Shown here piece by piece: positions 1 to 32,020 of a DNA stretch of 32,020 nucleotides. Source of the stretch: a virus. The notes beneath the pieces are model-generated. The model saw only the letters and a program-made list of their open reading frames with translations, ran no database searches and had not been told where the DNA came from. Each line of letters opens with the position of its first letter. The stretch's first letter is position 1. The stretch lies in the IMG/VR virus record IMGVR_UViG_3300022744_000076, positions 1 to 32,020 of that record. One strand, 5' to 3'. A program made the translations under genes and the position numbers.

Positions 1-151
1 CTTGGCATGCGTGAAATCCCCCCTCGCACGCCTTCACCGTGCCGTCATGGGTGTAAGTCTCGCCAACCGCGAACTGGAAGTCACGGCATTTGAAATCTGC
101 GTCAAGGCCCTTGAAGGCGGTGATTGGTGTGGTGTCGGGGGTGAATGACAT
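1..151 (-). CDS. Phage protein with DUF7666-like N-terminus (partial, runs off left edge)
   Basis: Reading leftward from the ATG at 151, 50 codons are open to the window edge. The residues include [23 protein letters not shown] and ACEGGFHAC. This matches the conserved start of a phage protein family (DUF7666, often preceding Ser/Ala/Gly repeats) that I recall as 'FKG-D-D-KCR-FQFEVGK-Y-H-G...C--GFHAC'. The function of the family is unknown. The gene lies 5 nt downstream of the 42-residue ORF at 157-285, so it is the second gene of the leftward PL operon. The C-terminal part lies outside the window. The family assignment is from memory of the motif; the reading frame itself is clear. Confidence 0.8.
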
Positions 152-156
152 GGCCA

Positions 157-285
157 TCAATGCACCGTCACCGGCTCAATGATGATCGGGCGGCGAATGT
201 GCTTGTCGGCCCAGACGGTTTCCAGATCGCAGATCGGCGTGACGACGACTGCCTGCCCGCGACTGTTGACGATGATGACTTGCAT
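157..285 (-). CDS. Small hypothetical protein, first gene of PL operon (42 aa)
   Basis: The ATG at 285 is preceded on the minus strand by AAGGAGG about 6 nt away, the best ribosome binding site in this region. The 42-codon product begins [15 protein letters not shown] and ends EPVTVH. It has alternating hydrophobic and charged residues, with no membrane segment or signal. It is the first gene after the PL promoter and the next gene starts 5 nt downstream, so the two are probably co-translated. I do not recognise a family. The support is the strong ribosome binding site, operon position and tight spacing. Confidence 0.7.
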
Positions 286-477: not shown

Positions 478-786
478 CTATTCGGCGTCAGAAAGCGCCC
501 ATTTCCACAGCAGGAACAGGCCAAGCAGGACAGCAAACAGGGCGAGGCCGGGGAATTCAGGCGCGAAGCCGTCGCCACTCAGGGAATTGATCATCCTGGC
601 TTCGAACCCGCCTTCACCGCGCCCGAAGCCAGTCAGAAGCGCCCCGAGCGCGAACGCCGATAAGCCGGACAGGGATGATCTGGCCCAAAACGGCGATACA
701 CCGCGATACAGGCGGAAGAAGATGGCGGCTATGATTGCAGTGTGGGCGAAAACCCCGACTGCGTTCCCGATGAAATATGCTGACAT
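478..786 (-). CDS. Small integral membrane protein in immunity region
   Basis: The 102-residue product starts MSAYFIGNAVGVF and has three hydrophobic stretches, at about residues 4-24, 35-52 and 77-94. The last ends in LLGLFLLWKWAL. The ATG at 786 has GAGGGG a few bases upstream on the minus strand. The gene is single and leftward, ends in its own terminator (417-447), and lies between the repressor end and PL. That is where lambdoid phages often carry genes expressed in the lysogen, such as exclusion or conversion proteins. I do not recognise a family, and the exclusion role is inferred only from position and topology. Confidence 0.65.
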   Translation of the reverse strand: MSAYFIGNAVGVFAHTAIIAAIFFRLYRGVSPFWARSSLSGLSAFALGALLTGFGRGEGGFEARMINSLSGDGFAPEFPGLALFAVLLGLFLLWKWALSDAE

Positions 787-945: not shown

Positions 946-1104
946 GTGGATAGCGATTTTATCAGCGACGTGTTTCTGAAGCTAAGCGAGGGGGGGAAAG
1001 ATCGCGTCATTGCGTATGGCGAGGCGCTTGTTCGCTCTGAAGAAGCGCGGCGGCAAAATCCTCTACCCGCTTCCGATCATCATCCTGAAGATTGCCAAGA
1101 ATAG
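946..1104 (+). CDS. Small protein resembling the repressor C-terminal tail, overlaps repressor gene antisense
   Basis: The GTG at 946 has GAGGGG at 931-936, a 9-nt spacing; in-frame TTG (922) and GTG (937) are less likely starts. The 52-residue product is acidic at its N-terminus and contains LSEGGKDRV followed by ALVRSEEARRQ. The repressor's own C-terminus reads LQDDDRKRV followed by ALLQSEQAPR at the same spacing, so the two look related. The genes are convergent and overlap by 98 bp (1007-1104). Part of the overlap is a quasi-palindrome (1024-1048), which makes both strands encode a similar stretch. No HTH is present. The role is unknown; a decoy of the repressor's tail interactions is one possibility. 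Confidence 0.5.
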   Translation: MDSDFISDVFLKLSEGGKDRVIAYGEALVRSEEARRQNPLPASDHHPEDCQE

Positions 1105-1324
1105 TCAAAATCTTCCCGAGATGATCGCCTTCGGACGCGATCAGCGCCTCTGGCTGCACGCCAAGAGCGGCTGATATCCGCGTCATCAAGTGGTTGTTGA
1201 GGTTCTTTTTCCCCCGCTCCACTTCGGAAATGTGCGGGACTGAAACCCCCACCAGTTCAGCCAGTTGGGCGATGGTGAGGCCACGAGCCTTGCGCAGTGC
1301 GCGAATGTTCAGATTTAGCGACAT
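1007..1324 (-). CDS. XRE-family (CI-like) repressor
   Basis: The 105-residue product starts at the ATG at 1324 (MSLNLNIRALRKARGL). The frame stays open to 1387, but the upstream part contains the intergenic operator/promoter region. Residues about 3-60 are a typical HTH_3/XRE domain: the helix-turn-helix reads LTIAQLAELVGVSVPHISEVE, with the ERGKKNLN signature after it. A tail of about 30 residues ends in RVEDFAAALLQSEQ. There is no peptidase S24 domain, so this is a short repressor without RecA-stimulated self-cleavage; induction must work differently or through another protein. An operator (1314-1330) covers its start codon, implying autoregulation. It is divergent from the Cro-like gene. 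Confidence 0.88.
   Translation of the reverse strand: MSLNLNIRALRKARGLTIAQLAELVGVSVPHISEVERGKKNLNNHLMTRISAALGVQPEALIASEGDHLGKILTILGNLQDDDRKRVEDFAAALLQSEQAPRHTQ
1024..1048. repeat. Quasi-palindrome in convergent gene overlap
   Basis: GCGCTTGTTC (1024-1033), a 5-nt loop, and GAAGAAGCGC (1039-1048) form a 10-bp stem with one mismatch. It lies inside the 3' ends of the convergent genes 946-1104 (+) and 1007-1324 (-). It could work as a bidirectional pause or terminator, though neither side has a T-run. Confidence 0.5.
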
Positions 1325-1330
1325 GCGAAA
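1314..1330. promoter_or_regulatory. Repressor operator OR2 covering the repressor start codon
   Basis: TTTAGC (1314-1319), 5-nt spacer, GCGAAA (1325-1330) matches the variant core seen at OL2. The repressor ATG (1324-1322) lies inside it. Binding would repress the repressor's own synthesis. It is 78 bp from the perfect site at 1392-1408, on the other side of the divergent intergenic region. Confidence 0.5.
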
Positions 1331-1381
1331 AGCATACGCTATCCATGCGGGCCGAGACATTTGCAAATGGATAAATGTTGT

Positions 1382-1410
1382 TTGCATGGCGTTTAGCTAT
1401 CAGCTAAATT
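1382..1410 (+). promoter_or_regulatory. PR-like promoter with operator OR1
   Basis: TTGCAT (1382-1387), 17-bp spacer, TAAATT (1405-1410). The perfect dyad TTTAGC-N5-GCTAAA (1392-1408) fills the spacer and overlaps the -10. A start about 7 nt after the -10 falls at or near the ATG at 1417, so the Cro-like message could be leaderless or nearly so. The layout is the same as PL. Confidence 0.6.
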
Positions 1411-11412: not shown

Positions 11413-11562
11413 ATGATCGGCATCGGCTCCCGCGTGCGCGTTCTCGCGCCATTCGATCAGCTTTACCCTGATATCTATGTGATCGACGGGCAGTCGGAAA
11501 CGGGCGCATGGCAGATCGACGGGGTTGATTTTGCCCCCGAGCACCTGGAGCTTGTGGAATGA
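11413..11562 (+). CDS. Small beta-barrel-like protein (49 aa)
   Basis: The ATG at 11413 has GAGG 6 nt upstream (11403-11406). The product starts MIGIGSRVRVLAPFDQLYPD and ends VDFAPEHLELVE, a pattern like a small SH3/KOW-type barrel with the conserved ending D-F-x-P-x-H-L-E. The stop overlaps the next ATG (11559). Similar tiny proteins occur beside structural proteins of related phages. The function is unknown. Confidence 0.7.
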   Translation: MIGIGSRVRVLAPFDQLYPDIYVIDGQSETGAWQIDGVDFAPEHLELVE

Positions 11563-12380
11563 CAATCACCACGCTCGACGGCGTTCTGGCCGGGATGCAG
11601 GCCCCTGTATCGTTCAACAAGTCGTCAGTCACGCCGTTGGCCGCTGCAACGCGCCGCGCCTATACATGGTGGTATTCGTCGGGGTGTCCGGGGGCTTCGG
11701 TTGCCCCATCGCCGGGCATCAACGGTGCGACGTGTGTGTATGGTAACGCCGATGTACTTGGTGCGCTCACGCGATCAAACCCGACAGGCGGACAATCCGC
11801 CTATCTGGCGCAACTTCTTGCTCTTCCGACTGGTCAGGCGTCGACGGTCCTGTTGCTGGACAGGATTTGGCACAACTCAGGGCTGTCTGTCACGTCTACG
11901 ACTGCGCAGGCAATCACGCCTGTGGCAATCCCGGCGCGGGATCAAAACGGCACGACGAATGGCCTTGGCGTCATTGCTGGCGTCGAATGGTCGTCGGCTG
12001 GTGGCGCTGGAACGCCTACGGTAACGCTGACTTATACAAACCAGGCGGGGACAACGGGGCAGACGGCTACCTTTACGGGGGTTGCTTCGCCACCGGCGGG
12101 AACAATCGAGTTCTTTGCCCTCGCGGCTGGCGATACGGGCGTGCGCGCCTGCACGTCGTTTATTCAGTCTGCGACAAGAACAAGCGGGACGATGCACCTG
12201 TGCCTTTACCGCGTCGTGGCAATGGTTGGCTCTGCCGTGGCTGGAAACGCAGGCGTTACCGACTTCTTCACGTCCGGGCGCCCGCAGATTTACGACAATA
12301 GCTGCTTGCAGCTGGCCTATATCAATTCGTCGACGACGGCGAACGGCCTGTTCGGGACGTATGTGGAGACGCAGGGATAA
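11559..12380 (+). CDS. Virion structural protein, paralogue A
   Basis: The 273-residue product starts MTITTLDGVLAGMQAPVSFN. It shares SGLSVTSTTAQAIT, GVEWSSAGGAGTPTVTLTYT and TSFIQSATRTSGTMHL with the next gene across most of its length, so the two are tandem paralogues. It is rich in Ser, Thr, Gly and Ala with many predicted beta strands, low in charge, as in phage head-decoration or tail-surface proteins. In related phages this type is found between portal and scaffold and is annotated as a structural or hypothetical protein. The stop overlaps the next ATG (TAATG). Confidence 0.8.
   Translation: MTITTLDGVLAGMQAPVSFNKSSVTPLAAATRRAYTWWYSSGCPGASVAPSPGINGATCVYGNADVLGALTRSNPTGGQSAYLAQLLALPTGQASTVLLLDRIWHNSGLSVTSTTAQAITPVAIPARDQNGTTNGLGVIAGVEWSSAGGAGTPTVTLTYTNQAGTTGQTATFTGVASPPAGTIEFFALAAGDTGVRACTSFIQSATRTSGTMHLCLYRVVAMVGSAVAGNAGVTDFFTSGRPQIYDNSCLQLAYINSSTTANGLFGTYVETQG
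11976..12058 (+). repeat. 83-bp exact direct repeat, copy in paralogue A
   Basis: All 83 bases match 12800-12882 exactly (offset 824). The sequence outside it is much more divergent, so the block looks homogenised between the two paralogous genes. Confidence 0.95.
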
Positions 12381-13207
12381 TGGCGATCACCACAAGGGCT
12401 GGGGCAATATCCGGGCTGCAAATTCCAACGTATGTGGCAAAGGCTCTGGCGGGGGATAGTCAAGCAACAAACAGACTTATTACAAGCTGGTATGCTACAG
12501 GGTGGCCCACGGCGGCAACGGCGAATGCTGCTGGGATCAATGGGCAGGCCGTGTCGGCAAGCACCTATCCTGCCAACTGCATACAGCGCAACAACCCGCC
12601 ATCTGGAAATGCCTACGTCAGCGATCTGAGCCTGTCGCAGGGGGTTAACGGCTCCAACCTTCCGGGCGTCATGTATCTCTGTGACAGGCTCTGGGAAAAC
12701 AGCGGGCTGTCGGTAACATCCACGACTGCGCAGGCGATTACTCCAGCCACGCTGCCTGCCAGAGACAGGCTCGCATCGACAAACGGGGATAATGTCTGGG
12801 CTGGCGTCGAATGGTCGTCGGCTGGTGGCGCTGGAACGCCTACGGTAACGCTGACTTATACAAACCAGGCGGGGACAACGGGACAAAGTGCAACGTTTAC
12901 CGGTCTTACGGCTCCACCTGCCGGGACAATGGAAATATTCCAGCTTGCGGCTGGGGATAATGGTGTTCGCGCGCCAACGTCGTTTATCCAATCCGCCACA
13001 CGGACAAGCGGAACCATGCACCTTGTCTTGTTCCGCGTCATTGCGGCTGTGGCCATGACAATTCCTGGGCGTCAGGCGCAGGGCGATCTGTTCCGGCTCG
13101 GGTTCCCGAAAGTCTTGAATGATAGCTGCCTGTTTTTCCTGTTCAGATCGAATTCGACTTCACAACTGCCGATTTTGACGGGGCAATACCAAGAAACCTG
13201 GGGGTAA
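12380..13207 (+). CDS. Virion structural protein, paralogue B
   Basis: The 275-residue product starts MAITTRAGAISGLQIPTYVA and is a tandem duplicate of the preceding gene, with the conserved SGLSVTSTTAQAIT block, the WSSAGGAGTPTVTLTYT block and the IQSATRTSGTMHL block. The N-terminal and C-terminal thirds differ (ending LPILTGQYQETWG versus LFGTYVETQG). An 83-bp central stretch is identical at DNA level (12800-12882) although flanks have diverged, suggesting recent gene conversion. It starts by overlap with the previous stop. Confidence 0.8.
   Translation: MAITTRAGAISGLQIPTYVAKALAGDSQATNRLITSWYATGWPTAATANAAGINGQAVSASTYPANCIQRNNPPSGNAYVSDLSLSQGVNGSNLPGVMYLCDRLWENSGLSVTSTTAQAITPATLPARDRLASTNGDNVWAGVEWSSAGGAGTPTVTLTYTNQAGTTGQSATFTGLTAPPAGTMEIFQLAAGDNGVRAPTSFIQSATRTSGTMHLVLFRVIAAVAMTIPGRQAQGDLFRLGFPKVLNDSCLFFLFRSNSTSQLPILTGQYQETWG
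12800..12882 (+). repeat. 83-bp exact direct repeat, copy in paralogue B
   Basis: Partner of 11976-12058; it encodes the AGVEWSSAGGAGTPTVTL region and the residues after it. Confidence 0.95.
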
Positions 13208-28770: not shown

Positions 28771-29184
28771 CTAGTTTTCGCTACACTTCGCAGCCGCGAC
28801 CGCCTTTTCCAGATCAGCTATTCGCGAGATCAGTTCAGGTATTAGGGATCGAGCCAATACGATGAAGTCTATGTTTGCCGATGATGGCTTCTCGTCAATA
28901 TATCGCGACCAAGCCCCTATATCCTGCACAATACAGGTCTTATACCCATCAACGAAAGCACAAATTATCCCGGAAGATTCTTCCCACGGGCCAGGAGTTA
29001 CGCCCTCAAGCGAGGCTTTTGCGCGGGCGATCAGATCATCGGCATTATGCACTTTCTGCATATTGCCTTTGTGCCGCGCATCCAGCAAGGCCTCGATGCG
29101 CCCGGGGGATAGGGGGTCGGGTTTACCCGCGCGGATATGAGCGCAATCCGCAATGTCACACTGCGGACAAACTTTGGTGGTCAT
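28771..29184 (-). CDS. Ea22/Ead-like accessory early protein with N-terminal zinc-binding motif
   Basis: The 137-residue product starts MTTKVCPQCDIADCAHIRAG, a CPxC...C-x-H pattern suggesting a small zinc knuckle at residues 6-16. The remainder, IEALLDARHKGNMQ, then DLIARAKASLEGVTPGPWEE and NIDFIVLARSLIPELISRIA, matches the architecture (including 'T-P-G-P-W') of Ead/Ea22-like phage proteins. It is the last gene of the leftward accessory operon. The function is not established. Confidence 0.8.
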   Translation of the reverse strand: MTTKVCPQCDIADCAHIRAGKPDPLSPGRIEALLDARHKGNMQKVHNADDLIARAKASLEGVTPGPWEESSGIICAFVDGYKTCIVQDIGAWSRYIDEKPSSANIDFIVLARSLIPELISRIADLEKAVAAAKCSEN

Positions 29185-29432
29185 GGCTCAATCCTCGACA
29201 AAATCCCGTGGGTTAGGCTGGAAATAACCTGCGCTTGAGTTGATAAAAGCCGCGTAAATTCAATCCTTTCGCTGCCGTATCGCTTGTAGTTATCAGCCAT
29301 GAGGCAAACGGCCTTCAGCACGTCTCCGGTTGCGTTGGGATAAGATTTCAATGCCTCCGTGGAAATTCGGGTGACGATTTCCTCATCGGTTTCCGTTTGT
29401 TCACGTATTTTTGTAATATCCCTGACGTTCAT
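29181..29432 (-). CDS. Hypothetical early protein (83 aa)
   Basis: The start is the ATG at 29432 (MNVRDITKIREQTETDEEIV), with GGAG 7 nt upstream on the minus strand; an upstream in-frame ATG at 29510 lies inside the preceding gene. ATGDVLKAVCLMADNYKRYG follows and it ends SRIEP. It is helical and soluble. Its start overlaps the previous stop and its stop overlaps the next ATG. No known family. Confidence 0.7.
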   Translation of the reverse strand: MNVRDITKIREQTETDEEIVTRISTEALKSYPNATGDVLKAVCLMADNYKRYGSERIEFTRLLSTQAQVISSLTHGILSRIEP

Positions 29433-29447
29433 TCTTTCTCTCCTTTG
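29429..29447 (-). repeat. 19-bp gene-junction repeat, copy 1
   Basis: The 19-bp sequence from the stop through the ribosome binding site and the downstream start (minus strand: CAAAGGAGAGAAAGAATGA) is identical to 29737-29755. It carries the end of one gene, the SD (GGAG) and the ATG of the next. Confidence 0.9.
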
Positions 29448-29740
29448 CTTTGCACCATGGCGCTTGTATATGAAACACCCAAACCCTTCTGGCGCAGGTA
29501 ATCCAGCCAAATATCATCCCGGGCTTGGCGCAAATCTTTGATTTGGTCGAACGCTAGGTCGATCATAAACCGCCAGCGGAGGCGATCGATCGGGATGCTG
29601 TGCTTAATATACGTCCGTCCACTGTCTTGTTCGCGAAACTCGTAGCTGATCACGCCAAGATTGTATCGATCCCTCGAAACCAGTTCCCAGCCCACCTCTG
29701 ACGTAAGCCACTCGATCACTTCATCGCGTTCAAGGGTCAT
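29429..29740 (-). CDS. Hypothetical early protein (103 aa)
   Basis: The product starts MTLERDEVIEWLTSEVGWEL and continues RYNLGVISYEFREQDSGRTY and RWRFMIDLAFDQIKDLRQAR. It is a mixed alpha/beta soluble protein ending KGEKE. The identical ending KGEKE, encoded by the shared junction sequence, also closes the upstream gene (29737-30120). Start overlaps the previous stop. No family recognised. Confidence 0.7.
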   Translation of the reverse strand: MTLERDEVIEWLTSEVGWELVSRDRYNLGVISYEFREQDSGRTYIKHSIPIDRLRWRFMIDLAFDQIKDLRQARDDIWLDYLRQKGLGVSYTSAMVQSKGEKE

Positions 29741-29755
29741 TCTTTCTCTCCTTTG
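29737..29755 (-). repeat. 19-bp gene-junction repeat, copy 2
   Basis: Second copy of the junction sequence. It gives the same ...KGEKE ending and the same SD/start to a different gene pair, suggesting cassette exchange by homologous recombination at this boundary. Confidence 0.9.
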
Positions 29756-30120
29756 ATCTTTGCCAGAGCGGCGCGAGCGATTTCACCATAGGGGCTGTTT
29801 GGCCCAATGCGGCTGATCTCTGCCAGCGCCTCTACCAGCCCCTCTATCGCGTCTGTGTCGAGGGCGGCGAGAATGCGGGCGGTGTAGTCGGCTTGCGCGG
29901 CGGCTTGGGCGGCTTCGAGGGGCATCGGCGCGTGATGATGGTGGCCGTAAACAAAATGTCCGTTGCGAAACCATTGCCACTTGTCTTGTTTCCGACTTCC
30001 CGCAACTGAGTAATCGCCGACGCCGCCAGGCATGCCCGCGCGTAGACGGTCTGGATAACTGCCTTTCATGGAGTCAGGCAACCACACCAACGGTTTCACG
30101 AGTTTTGAAAAGTCGGTCAT
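29737..30120 (-). CDS. Ea22/Ead-like accessory protein (127 aa)
   Basis: The product starts MTDFSKLVKPLVWLPDSMKG and contains KWQWFRNGHFVYGHHHHAPM and LEAAQAAAQADYTARILAAL. The K-P-L-V-W start and the L-E-A-A-x-A-A-x-Q-A-D-Y-x-A-R-I-L block are features of widespread phage early proteins of the Ead/Ea22 type. Start and stop overlap neighbours by 4 nt. Function unknown. Confidence 0.78.
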   Translation of the reverse strand: MTDFSKLVKPLVWLPDSMKGSYPDRLRAGMPGGVGDYSVAGSRKQDKWQWFRNGHFVYGHHHHAPMPLEAAQAAAQADYTARILAALDTDAIEGLVEALAEISRIGPNSPYGEIARAALAKIKGEKE

Positions 30121-30812
30121 TTGTCGGCCTCATCAATATTGCGGTGTTCGACGGTGAATGTCAGTGCGGCCACCCATGGGTTTCGGTCCCACGCACCGGG
30201 GCCATGCAGGCTGTTCCAGAGTTCATGGAAGCTGTCGCGGCAGACAGACCCGCATTCGCCGGATCCATCCAGGCAGGCACGCTGTCTGCGTGCATGAATG
30301 TCGGTAGCCTCGATGCCTTCGGCTATCGTGTCGTTTAGGGTGATCTCCTGCAACCGCTGCACCCGCACGTCCGTCACGGTCAGGGTGATCCGGCTGGCCC
30401 AGCGTGGCATGTGGATCGAGGGCTTGGGGCGCGTGAAGTTGCCAGAGGTCTGGTTGCCATCGGCCCAATACCACGGCGGCATGAAGCCGTTGCGATCCAC
30501 GTCCAGCGTCTCGTAGCTGAACGCCTCCCGCACCCAGAGCCGGTCGCTGGGGGCGTAGCGCAGAAAATTTCGCTTCCCGCATGGGGATAGAAAGACCTTC
30601 AACCCATCGTCATCGGTCTGGCAGAAGCCGCCGAACTGCTTGACCCACCGATTGGGGTCAGATCCGTTGCACACGACGTCAGGCGGATAGCGCCATAGCC
30701 CGGCCTCATTCAGATCGGGCTGCGGTTTCAGCACCCTCCGCGTCTGCGACTTGCGCCCGTCCAGCAACGCCCGAACCATCGGGGCGGAAAATATGATTGG
30801 TCTGTCGATCAT
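30117..30812 (-). CDS. ASCH-domain-like phage protein
   Basis: The ATG at 30812 overlaps the HNH stop, fixing the start (the frame is open further upstream but that part lies in the HNH gene). The 231-residue product starts MIDRPIIFSAPMVRALLDGR, then KSQTRRVLKPQPDL, SDRLWVREAFSYETL, ITLTVTDVRVQRLQEI, GIEATD and the C-terminal WNSLHGPGAWDRNPWVAALT. This is the ASCH-like fold pattern of phage proteins with a proposed RNA-binding role (family knowledge, role unproven). It belongs to the leftward accessory operon. Confidence 0.85.
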   Translation of the reverse strand: MIDRPIIFSAPMVRALLDGRKSQTRRVLKPQPDLNEAGLWRYPPDVVCNGSDPNRWVKQFGGFCQTDDDGLKVFLSPCGKRNFLRYAPSDRLWVREAFSYETLDVDRNGFMPPWYWADGNQTSGNFTRPKPSIHMPRWASRITLTVTDVRVQRLQEITLNDTIAEGIEATDIHARRQRACLDGSGECGSVCRDSFHELWNSLHGPGAWDRNPWVAALTFTVEHRNIDEADK

Positions 30813-31633
30813 GCTCGTTCCCCCTTCCGCAGCCCACTCAGGCGATGTTCGAGCTTTGCCGTGGCAAAGATCGTGGGTTTCAGTTCGGCGGGTGCATGGT
30901 CGTAGGCGCGGCCTGACTTGCCGTTCAGGCGGGGGAGCATGCCCTGCGGGATGCATTCCCAGTTCGACGGGTCGCAATTCGTCTTGTCGCCGTCCAGGCA
31001 TTTCAGCACATGGCCGTCCGGTATCGGGCCGTGTTCTGCGACCCATAGTTCCTTGTGTTTGAACGCCATATGGGTGCGATAGCCGGTGAACGGGTTGGGG
31101 CGGTCGACGCAGATCAGAACATATCCATCTGGGTTCAGGCTTTCGTAGCCGATGGACTTGGCGTTGTGGGGATTGCGGCCGCGCCGGAATTGGGTGGCCT
31201 GGCTATTTGCGTTGGGCGGCAGCTTGCGGCCCTTGGTCCAGGGCGCGTGGCCCTTTTCGAAGTGCCCGGTGCGCCCGGTCTTTACCTTGTTCCGCTTGCG
31301 CCAGCCAATGATCTGGGCGGCGGTTGCGGCTGCATCAGGGAAGGCGGCGCGGAAGGCCGGTTCGACATCGGCGCGCGAGAGGGTGGCGTTCGCGCGTAGC
31401 CAGTCGATCTGCTCGGGCGTCAGGACGGTGGATTTGCCGCGATTGCGGCGGCGCGCATCCGGGCCCGCCGACCAGCCCATGCGAACACATAGGGCCTTCA
31501 GGTTGTCGTGGGTGACCTCTGGCCGGTTGAAGGCCGCAACGAACAGCGTACGCAATTCCTTGCGGGGCATCGCTGCCCGCGCCTTGATCCAGGCCAGCTC
31601 GTCTGCGCTGTAGCTGATCCGCTGGCCCCTCAT
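30809..31633 (-). CDS. HNH endonuclease with N-terminal HTH region
   Basis: The 274-residue product starts MRGQRISYSADELAWIKARA, with two SANT/GcrA-like segments in the first 110 residues (ELAWIKARAAMPRKEL and TPEQIDWLRANATLSRAD). A basic linker follows (GHFEKGHAPWTKGRKLPPNA). The HNH-type core is around GPIPDGHVLKCLDGDKTNCD followed by PSNWECIP, then MLPRLNGKSGR and KPTIFATAKLEHRL, a common phage HNH family. Compared with the consensus H-H-x-D/N-G-x-x-x-N, the second His is replaced (L-K-C-L-D-G-D-K-T-N), so activity needs testing. Roles include homing-type spread or packaging help. Confidence 0.85.
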   Translation of the reverse strand: MRGQRISYSADELAWIKARAAMPRKELRTLFVAAFNRPEVTHDNLKALCVRMGWSAGPDARRRNRGKSTVLTPEQIDWLRANATLSRADVEPAFRAAFPDAAATAAQIIGWRKRNKVKTGRTGHFEKGHAPWTKGRKLPPNANSQATQFRRGRNPHNAKSIGYESLNPDGYVLICVDRPNPFTGYRTHMAFKHKELWVAEHGPIPDGHVLKCLDGDKTNCDPSNWECIPQGMLPRLNGKSGRAYDHAPAELKPTIFATAKLEHRLSGLRKGERA

Positions 31634-31869
31634 TTCTTGGGGGCCTTTCCGATCATCGGCAGGTGCGGCACGATCTGCGACCCGTGTTCGGCGAAAAGCT
31701 TCGCGGCCTGCAGCTGGACCTTGGCGTTTTCGGTGATGCGATCGGCCACCTCGACGATCGCACCGGCGCGCGAAACCTCGGCCGCGATTTCCTCGGGTGT
31801 CTTGTTCTCGAGGTCCAGGCGCTGGAGGGCGGCGAAAAGGTAGTCGTTCAGTTCGGCGAGGGTGCTCAT
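31630..31869 (-). CDS. Small phage protein (79 aa)
   Basis: ATG at 31869, stop overlapping the HNH start. The product starts MSTLAELNDYLFAALQRLDL then ENKTPEEIAAEVSRAGAIVE, ITENAKVQLQAAKLFAEHGS and IGKAPKK. It is a helical protein that I recall near early/accessory genes in many phages, without an assigned function. It starts 4 nt after the LRR gene stop. Confidence 0.78.
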   Translation of the reverse strand: MSTLAELNDYLFAALQRLDLENKTPEEIAAEVSRAGAIVEVADRITENAKVQLQAAKLFAEHGSQIVPHLPMIGKAPKK

Positions 31870-31873
31870 GTTC

Positions 31874-32020
31874 CTATTTCCGTTTCGATGTCTTGCAGCG
31901 TTTTGACAGCCCCGGCAGCGCGGTGAGACCCGGCAGGTTCTCGGCCCGGAAGGTCGTGACGTTCGGCATATCCGGCAGCGCGGTGAGACCCGGCAGGTTC
32001 TCGGCCCGGAAGGTCGTGAC
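31874..32020 (-). CDS. Leucine-rich-repeat protein, C-terminal part (partial, runs off right edge)
   Basis: On the minus strand from the edge, the frame reads VTTFRAENLPGLTALPDMPN, then the same block again from VTTFRAEN, then GLSKRCKTSKRK and a stop at 31874. The repeat unit is 20 residues (L-P-G-L-T-A-L-P-x-M/L-...-N-V-T-T-F-R-A-E-N), like the short LRRs of IpaH/SspH-type proteins. The 49-bp block repeats exactly at a 60-bp period, so the array may be longer outside the window. The tail is basic. The number of repeats and the N-terminus are unknown. In a phage it could be a binding protein; the role is unknown. Confidence 0.8.
   Translation of the reverse strand, partial: VTTFRAENLPGLTALPDMPNVTTFRAENLPGLTALPGLSKRCKTSKRK
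31912..32020 (-). repeat. Tandem repeat, 60-bp period, encoding LRR units
   Basis: The 49 bases at 31912-31960 are identical to 31972-32020 with an 11-bp spacer between, so at least two units of a 60-bp tandem array are visible and the window ends inside it. Confidence 0.92.

Follow-up and report, generated by a model that had tools for sequence, protein, structure and literature searches.

The Sulfitobacter phages pCB2047-A, pCB2047-C and phiGT1, together with EBPR podovirus 2, have the same order of terminase, portal, scaffold and head genes as the DNA studied here, a 32,020-base IMG/VR virus record classed as linear (IMGVR_UViG_3300022744_000076), the whole of which is called the window. 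The records of pCB2047-A and phiGT1 are circular, with lengths of 40.9 and 40.0 kb, respectively, and the portal protein of the window was 61% identical to that of pCB2047-A and 58% identical to that of phiGT1. pCB2047-A is temperate (PMC4047441) and its record carries an integrase, and phiGT1 was described as lytic (PMC10386132). Both differ from the window in their early-left genes, and neither a leucine-rich-repeat (LRR) gene nor a DUF7666 gene is annotated in either of them. DUF7666 and HNH genes were also absent from the portal relatives of the window in IMG/VR, and the early region could thus not be compared with that of a near relative. No relative was confirmed in a genome scan with a portal alignment. 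Downstream of the portal gene, the window encodes two adjacent similar proteins (11559-12380 and 12380-13207) that share 148 identical residues over 279 aligned columns, and this pair is a tandem gene duplication.

The early genes were instead found in other described phages. In ES18, the DUF7666 protein gp53 is encoded in the PL operon directly after the c2 repressor and a gene-24-like gene, and in fLi-Aba03 the DUF7666 gene lies about 1.5 kb past CI. In Edno5, a complete circular phage, the LRR gene lies past CI and ahead of exonuclease VIII/RecT, and the integrase stands at the far end; Mae-JY02 carries the 79-aa gene and the HNH gene within its repressor-to-integrase operon. Among IMG/VR contigs, L095/L151 has the LRR gene, a pentapeptide protein, a DUF3799 nuclease, RecT and an integrase in this order and in one direction. 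In L071 the LRR gene is followed by DUF2800, and in L007 the 79-aa and HNH genes come after DUF3799 and RecT. The window contains the following features at its two ends:

1-157, minus strand: first 52 codons of a DUF7666 gene, which the contig start interrupts (PF24703, E 7e-15; phrog_4433, E 9e-21)
157-285, minus strand: 42-aa open frame directly upstream of DUF7666
478-786, minus strand: hydrophobic 102-aa open frame, no Pfam match
1007-1387, minus strand: XRE-type repressor from which the leftward operon starts (HTH_3, E 1e-14)
28771-31046, minus strand: further early-operon genes (phrog_874, phrog_722, unknown), ending beside the late genes
30809-31633, minus strand: HNH endonuclease (phrog_1891, E 2e-50; Pfam HNH_3, E 1e-8)
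31630-31869, minus strand: 79-aa protein, phrog_2044, annotated as RNA polymerase beta subunit (PHROG E 9e-17)
31874-32020, minus strand: most likely the last 48 codons and the stop codon of an LRR gene whose 5' part lies beyond the contig end (from translation, third-position GC and relatives)
31912-31960, minus strand: LRR repeat copy, exact match to 31972-32020
31972-32020, minus strand: LRR repeat copy, cut by the contig end, exact match to 31912-31960

All of these genes lie on the minus strand, with the repressor followed by the exit of DUF7666 at position 1, and with the LRR, 79-aa and HNH genes entering at 32020. Because of the gene orders in ES18, fLi-Aba03, Edno5, L095/L151, Mae-JY02 and L007, the genes that leave at one end and those that enter at the other are probably two parts of one leftward operon. 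A PL-type operon would thus start at the repressor (1387), exit at position 1 inside DUF7666 and re-enter at 32020 within a small LRR gene distinct from DUF7666. The original prediction had described an operon that leaves at position 1 in the direction in which another enters at 32020, and this layout matched the PL operons of ES18, Edno5 and Mae-JY02. We give a probability of about 0.8 to the joint reading that the window is an incomplete phage of the pCB2047-A/phiGT1 group with a circular, lambda-like map, a PL operon split by a gap and an early accessory LRR protein. It would then represent about four fifths of a podovirus-like genome.

The two ends of the window neither overlap nor form a direct repeat, and when the 300 bases at each contig end were compared, no exact shared word above 10 nt was found. 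The window is therefore an incomplete contig. That sequence is missing between the ends, as had been proposed, agreed with the lack of an overlap and with both the DUF7666 and the LRR gene being cut, and the sequence gives good support, short of proof, to a circular map that lacks a piece. It is highly improbable that the contig is instead part of an integrated prophage that continues into host DNA past one or both ends, which would then not be linked. Each end falls within a phage early gene and carries neither a tRNA gene nor a bacterial gene, and an interruption would be expected at the attachment site and not within these early genes; this stands against the linear classification of the record, the temperate lineage indicated by the repressor, and the temperate lifestyle and integrase of pCB2047-A (PMC4047441).

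The minus strand from 32020 to 31874 translated into VTTFRAENLPGLTALPDMPNVTTFRAENLPGLTALPGLSKRCKTSKRK, followed by a stop. The unit of the protein is 20 residues long, LTALPDMPNVTTFRAENLPG, and the fragment contains two such tandem units with the conserved hydrophobic pattern of LRR proteins. The two 49-nt copies at the DNA level were 100% identical at a spacing of 60, for which chance is negligible, and the 49-mer did not occur anywhere else in the window. The prediction of exact 49-bp repeats was right about their exactness and their 60-bp spacing but not about 49 bp as the full length, which is a lower limit of the repeat identity, as the end of the contig cuts off the second copy. Third-position GC was 84% in the LRR frame compared to 54-56% in the other two minus-strand frames, which identified the LRR frame as the coding one. 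An open frame at 31630-32019, in which the 79-aa gene is extended upstream, was considered as coding and rejected since third-position GC favoured the LRR frame. The protein stops 12 residues past the last LTALP motif with a short basic tail, and no ligase domain follows the repeats. A scan of the 48-residue fragment against Pfam and PHROGs, for which the piece is too short, gave no profile match. The fragment most likely represents the C-terminus of an LRR protein encoded by a phage, as had been suggested for the contig edge, and the translation, the third-position GC and the units of its relatives all agreed with this. The 79-aa gene begins 4 nt after the LRR stop, a distance typical of a phage operon, and its homologs adjoin an HNH gene in L007, L008 and Mae-JY02. 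The RNA polymerase beta subunit label of phrog_2044 is doubtful for a protein of 79 aa.

Direct searches with the 48-aa LRR tail gave no confirmed relative in viral contigs and no match at E 10 in phages. A degenerate DNA pattern that encodes two LTxLPx(L/M)P units spaced 60 nt apart was searched in IMG/VR and matched 83 stretches. Among them were about a dozen phage proteins of a common style; several matches in prophage records were enteric-bacterial LRR effector genes, which were set aside. A stricter repeat pattern that used the window's own residues gave no match. The best unit of contig L070, LTALPDMPAATDVRVENCPG, was identical to the window unit at 14 of 20 positions and that of L095, LTALPPLPAATYVRAENLPL, at 13 of 20, compared to 6-7 of 20 for the best-matching stretch in a six-frame translation of the rest of the window, which served as the control. 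Another relative, L041, cleared the Pfam LRR_4 cut-off. An AlphaFold2 model of the relative L070 showed a regular LRR solenoid in which a strand recurs every 20 residues (pLDDT 87.5, pTM 0.82). Its best PDB matches were mostly LRR domains, SspH-type ones among them, with TM-scores up to about 0.58 and weak E-values. A genome scan with the LRR alignment found only one Sphingopyxis protein, of another LRR type and with no obvious prophage around it. Of 385 genomes in the class of this Sphingopyxis hit, one contained the 79-aa gene.

Edno5 gp47 and the proteins of L095/L151, L070 and L083 are, like the window protein, small and built from near-identical tandem 20-residue LRR units with an LP motif, and in Edno5 and L095/L151 the gene also lies in a PL-type operon. 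Edno5 gp47 differs in its unit, ITALPDGLSVGGSLYLRGTG, and has a C-terminal domain, whereas the window protein, like the L095 protein (..AENLPLLKNKA), finishes with a short basic tail. gp47 was called an LRR ligase by its authors from its structural likeness to enterobacterial effectors (PMC6372524). This effector-like ubiquitin-ligase work does not transfer to the window protein, because the latter ends without a further domain. Secreted effectors of the SspH, IpaH and YopM type share the LRR unit class with its LP motif, but the window gene belongs to a phage early operon and its repeats are followed by no ligase domain. On this evidence the protein is not counted among the secreted LRR E3-ligase effectors, which have a C-terminal ligase domain. 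The window carries a real LRR gene, a further example of a known, little-studied kind.

LRR genes of this style were cut by a contig end in five of the 12 IMG/VR contigs (L062, L069, L071, L083 and L095), compared to an expectation of about 4% each (mean chance about 3.7%, p 4e-5, with a gene length of 700 bp assumed). This agreed with the earlier proposal of an assembly break inside the LRR array. The break at 32020 is an ordinary, common assembly artefact, and it would have arisen from exact tandem LRR repeats that short reads are unable to resolve. An additional cause, that the sampled phages differ in the number or order of their LRR units, appears rather unlikely. Exact repeats with a 60-bp period invite unequal recombination, and the LRR genes of the relatives contain exact repeats of 43-117 nt, but a single genotype with a long exact array would give the same break.

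At the left end, the DUF7666 fragment scored 55.7 bits against PF24703 (cut-off 27) and covered profile positions 1-41 of 95, so the rest of the gene was indeed missing, as predicted. It resembles the ES18 gp53 type (PF24703, phrog_4433) in its N-terminal domain and in its site soon after the repressor in the PL operon, but only 52 residues are retained in the window, and the repeats and the C-terminus fall outside it. The break at position 1 corresponds to residue 52, ahead of the usual repeat location. Repeats therefore account for only one of the two contig breaks, the one at 32020. In five viral contigs, the DUF7666 proteins contained SATG-type repeats or few repeats. In two of the five, these repeats ran into the contig ends (L002, 10001-10533; L004, 10001-10431), so a second repeat gene from phage early operons meets with the same assembly problem. 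Short-read assemblies thus break at a recognisable place in small LRR genes of phages and in DUF7666 repeat genes; in metagenomes such genes are probably under-counted, and their unit numbers would not be recovered. None of the papers searched used the term DUF7666.

Both cut genes are encoded on the minus strand, opposite each other across the two contig ends, and tandem repeats follow the domain in DUF7666 proteins. This would also fit a single gene of which DUF7666 and the LRR array are the two ends, with a missing piece of only a few hundred bases, and Mae-JY02 has only about 1.7 kb from the repressor to the 79-aa gene. We consider a single gene unlikely. LRRs were present in none of the five viral-contig DUF7666 proteins, DUF7666 was found in none of the 12 LRR contigs, some of which are fragments, and intact phage LRR proteins carry their own N-terminal cap. 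The frames of DUF7666 and the LRR gene did not match when the ends were joined, as had been noted originally, although missing sequence could repair this. No related contig was found with both DUF7666 and this type of LRR. The LRR and DUF7666 sequences are probably two separate genes, because no relative that was found has both in one gene or contig.

With DUF7666 and LRR read as separate genes, the missing part of this incomplete phage would lie between the DUF7666 end (position 1) and the LRR end (32020). The leftward region, from the repressor to the end of the operon, measures about 10.8 kb in pCB2047-A, 8.7 kb in Edno5, 8.2 kb in Mae-JY02 and 6.7 kb in phiGT1, compared to 4.6 kb present in the window, which suggests a gap of 2-6 kb. 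The whole genomes of 40.0-40.9 kb compared to 32.0 kb suggest a gap of 8-9 kb. The missing piece is thus probably 2-9 kb long; phage PL operons are mosaic, so its size and content are estimates. Terminase, portal, head, tail, lysis and replication genes were among the window proteins scanned. No integrase or recombinase was found among those proteins in Pfam and PHROGs, a set that did not include every small frame. The XRE repressor at 1007-1387 is a marker of temperate phages, and an integrase is possible within the gap; alternatively, it could be absent, as in the annotation of phiGT1. The lack of integrase or recombination genes in the window must not be taken as biology.

LRR solenoids generally bind proteins. 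The LRR protein of the window would have an accessory role early on, with 20-residue units forming a solenoid and a short basic tail after it. Made early, beside recombination and repressor genes, it most likely binds one host or competitor protein, either early in infection or in the lysogen, and such binding would help the infection or protect the lysogen. Units may be gained or lost via recombination between the near-identical repeats. That the array is a fast-changing binding surface, with unit number and order varying within one population through exact-repeat recombination, is a long shot; if true, a variable array would let an early protein track a variable host or competitor protein, in counter-defence or superinfection control.

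A further observation concerned the relatives of the LRR gene. The pentapeptide-repeat protein of L095/L151 (896-1447) and the C-terminus of Edno5 gp47 (L148, 5899-6642) have a common C-terminal domain with an AGCFFGS motif (local score 73, about 11 standard deviations above shuffles). It looks as if this domain was joined to different repeat solenoids in two phage early operons.
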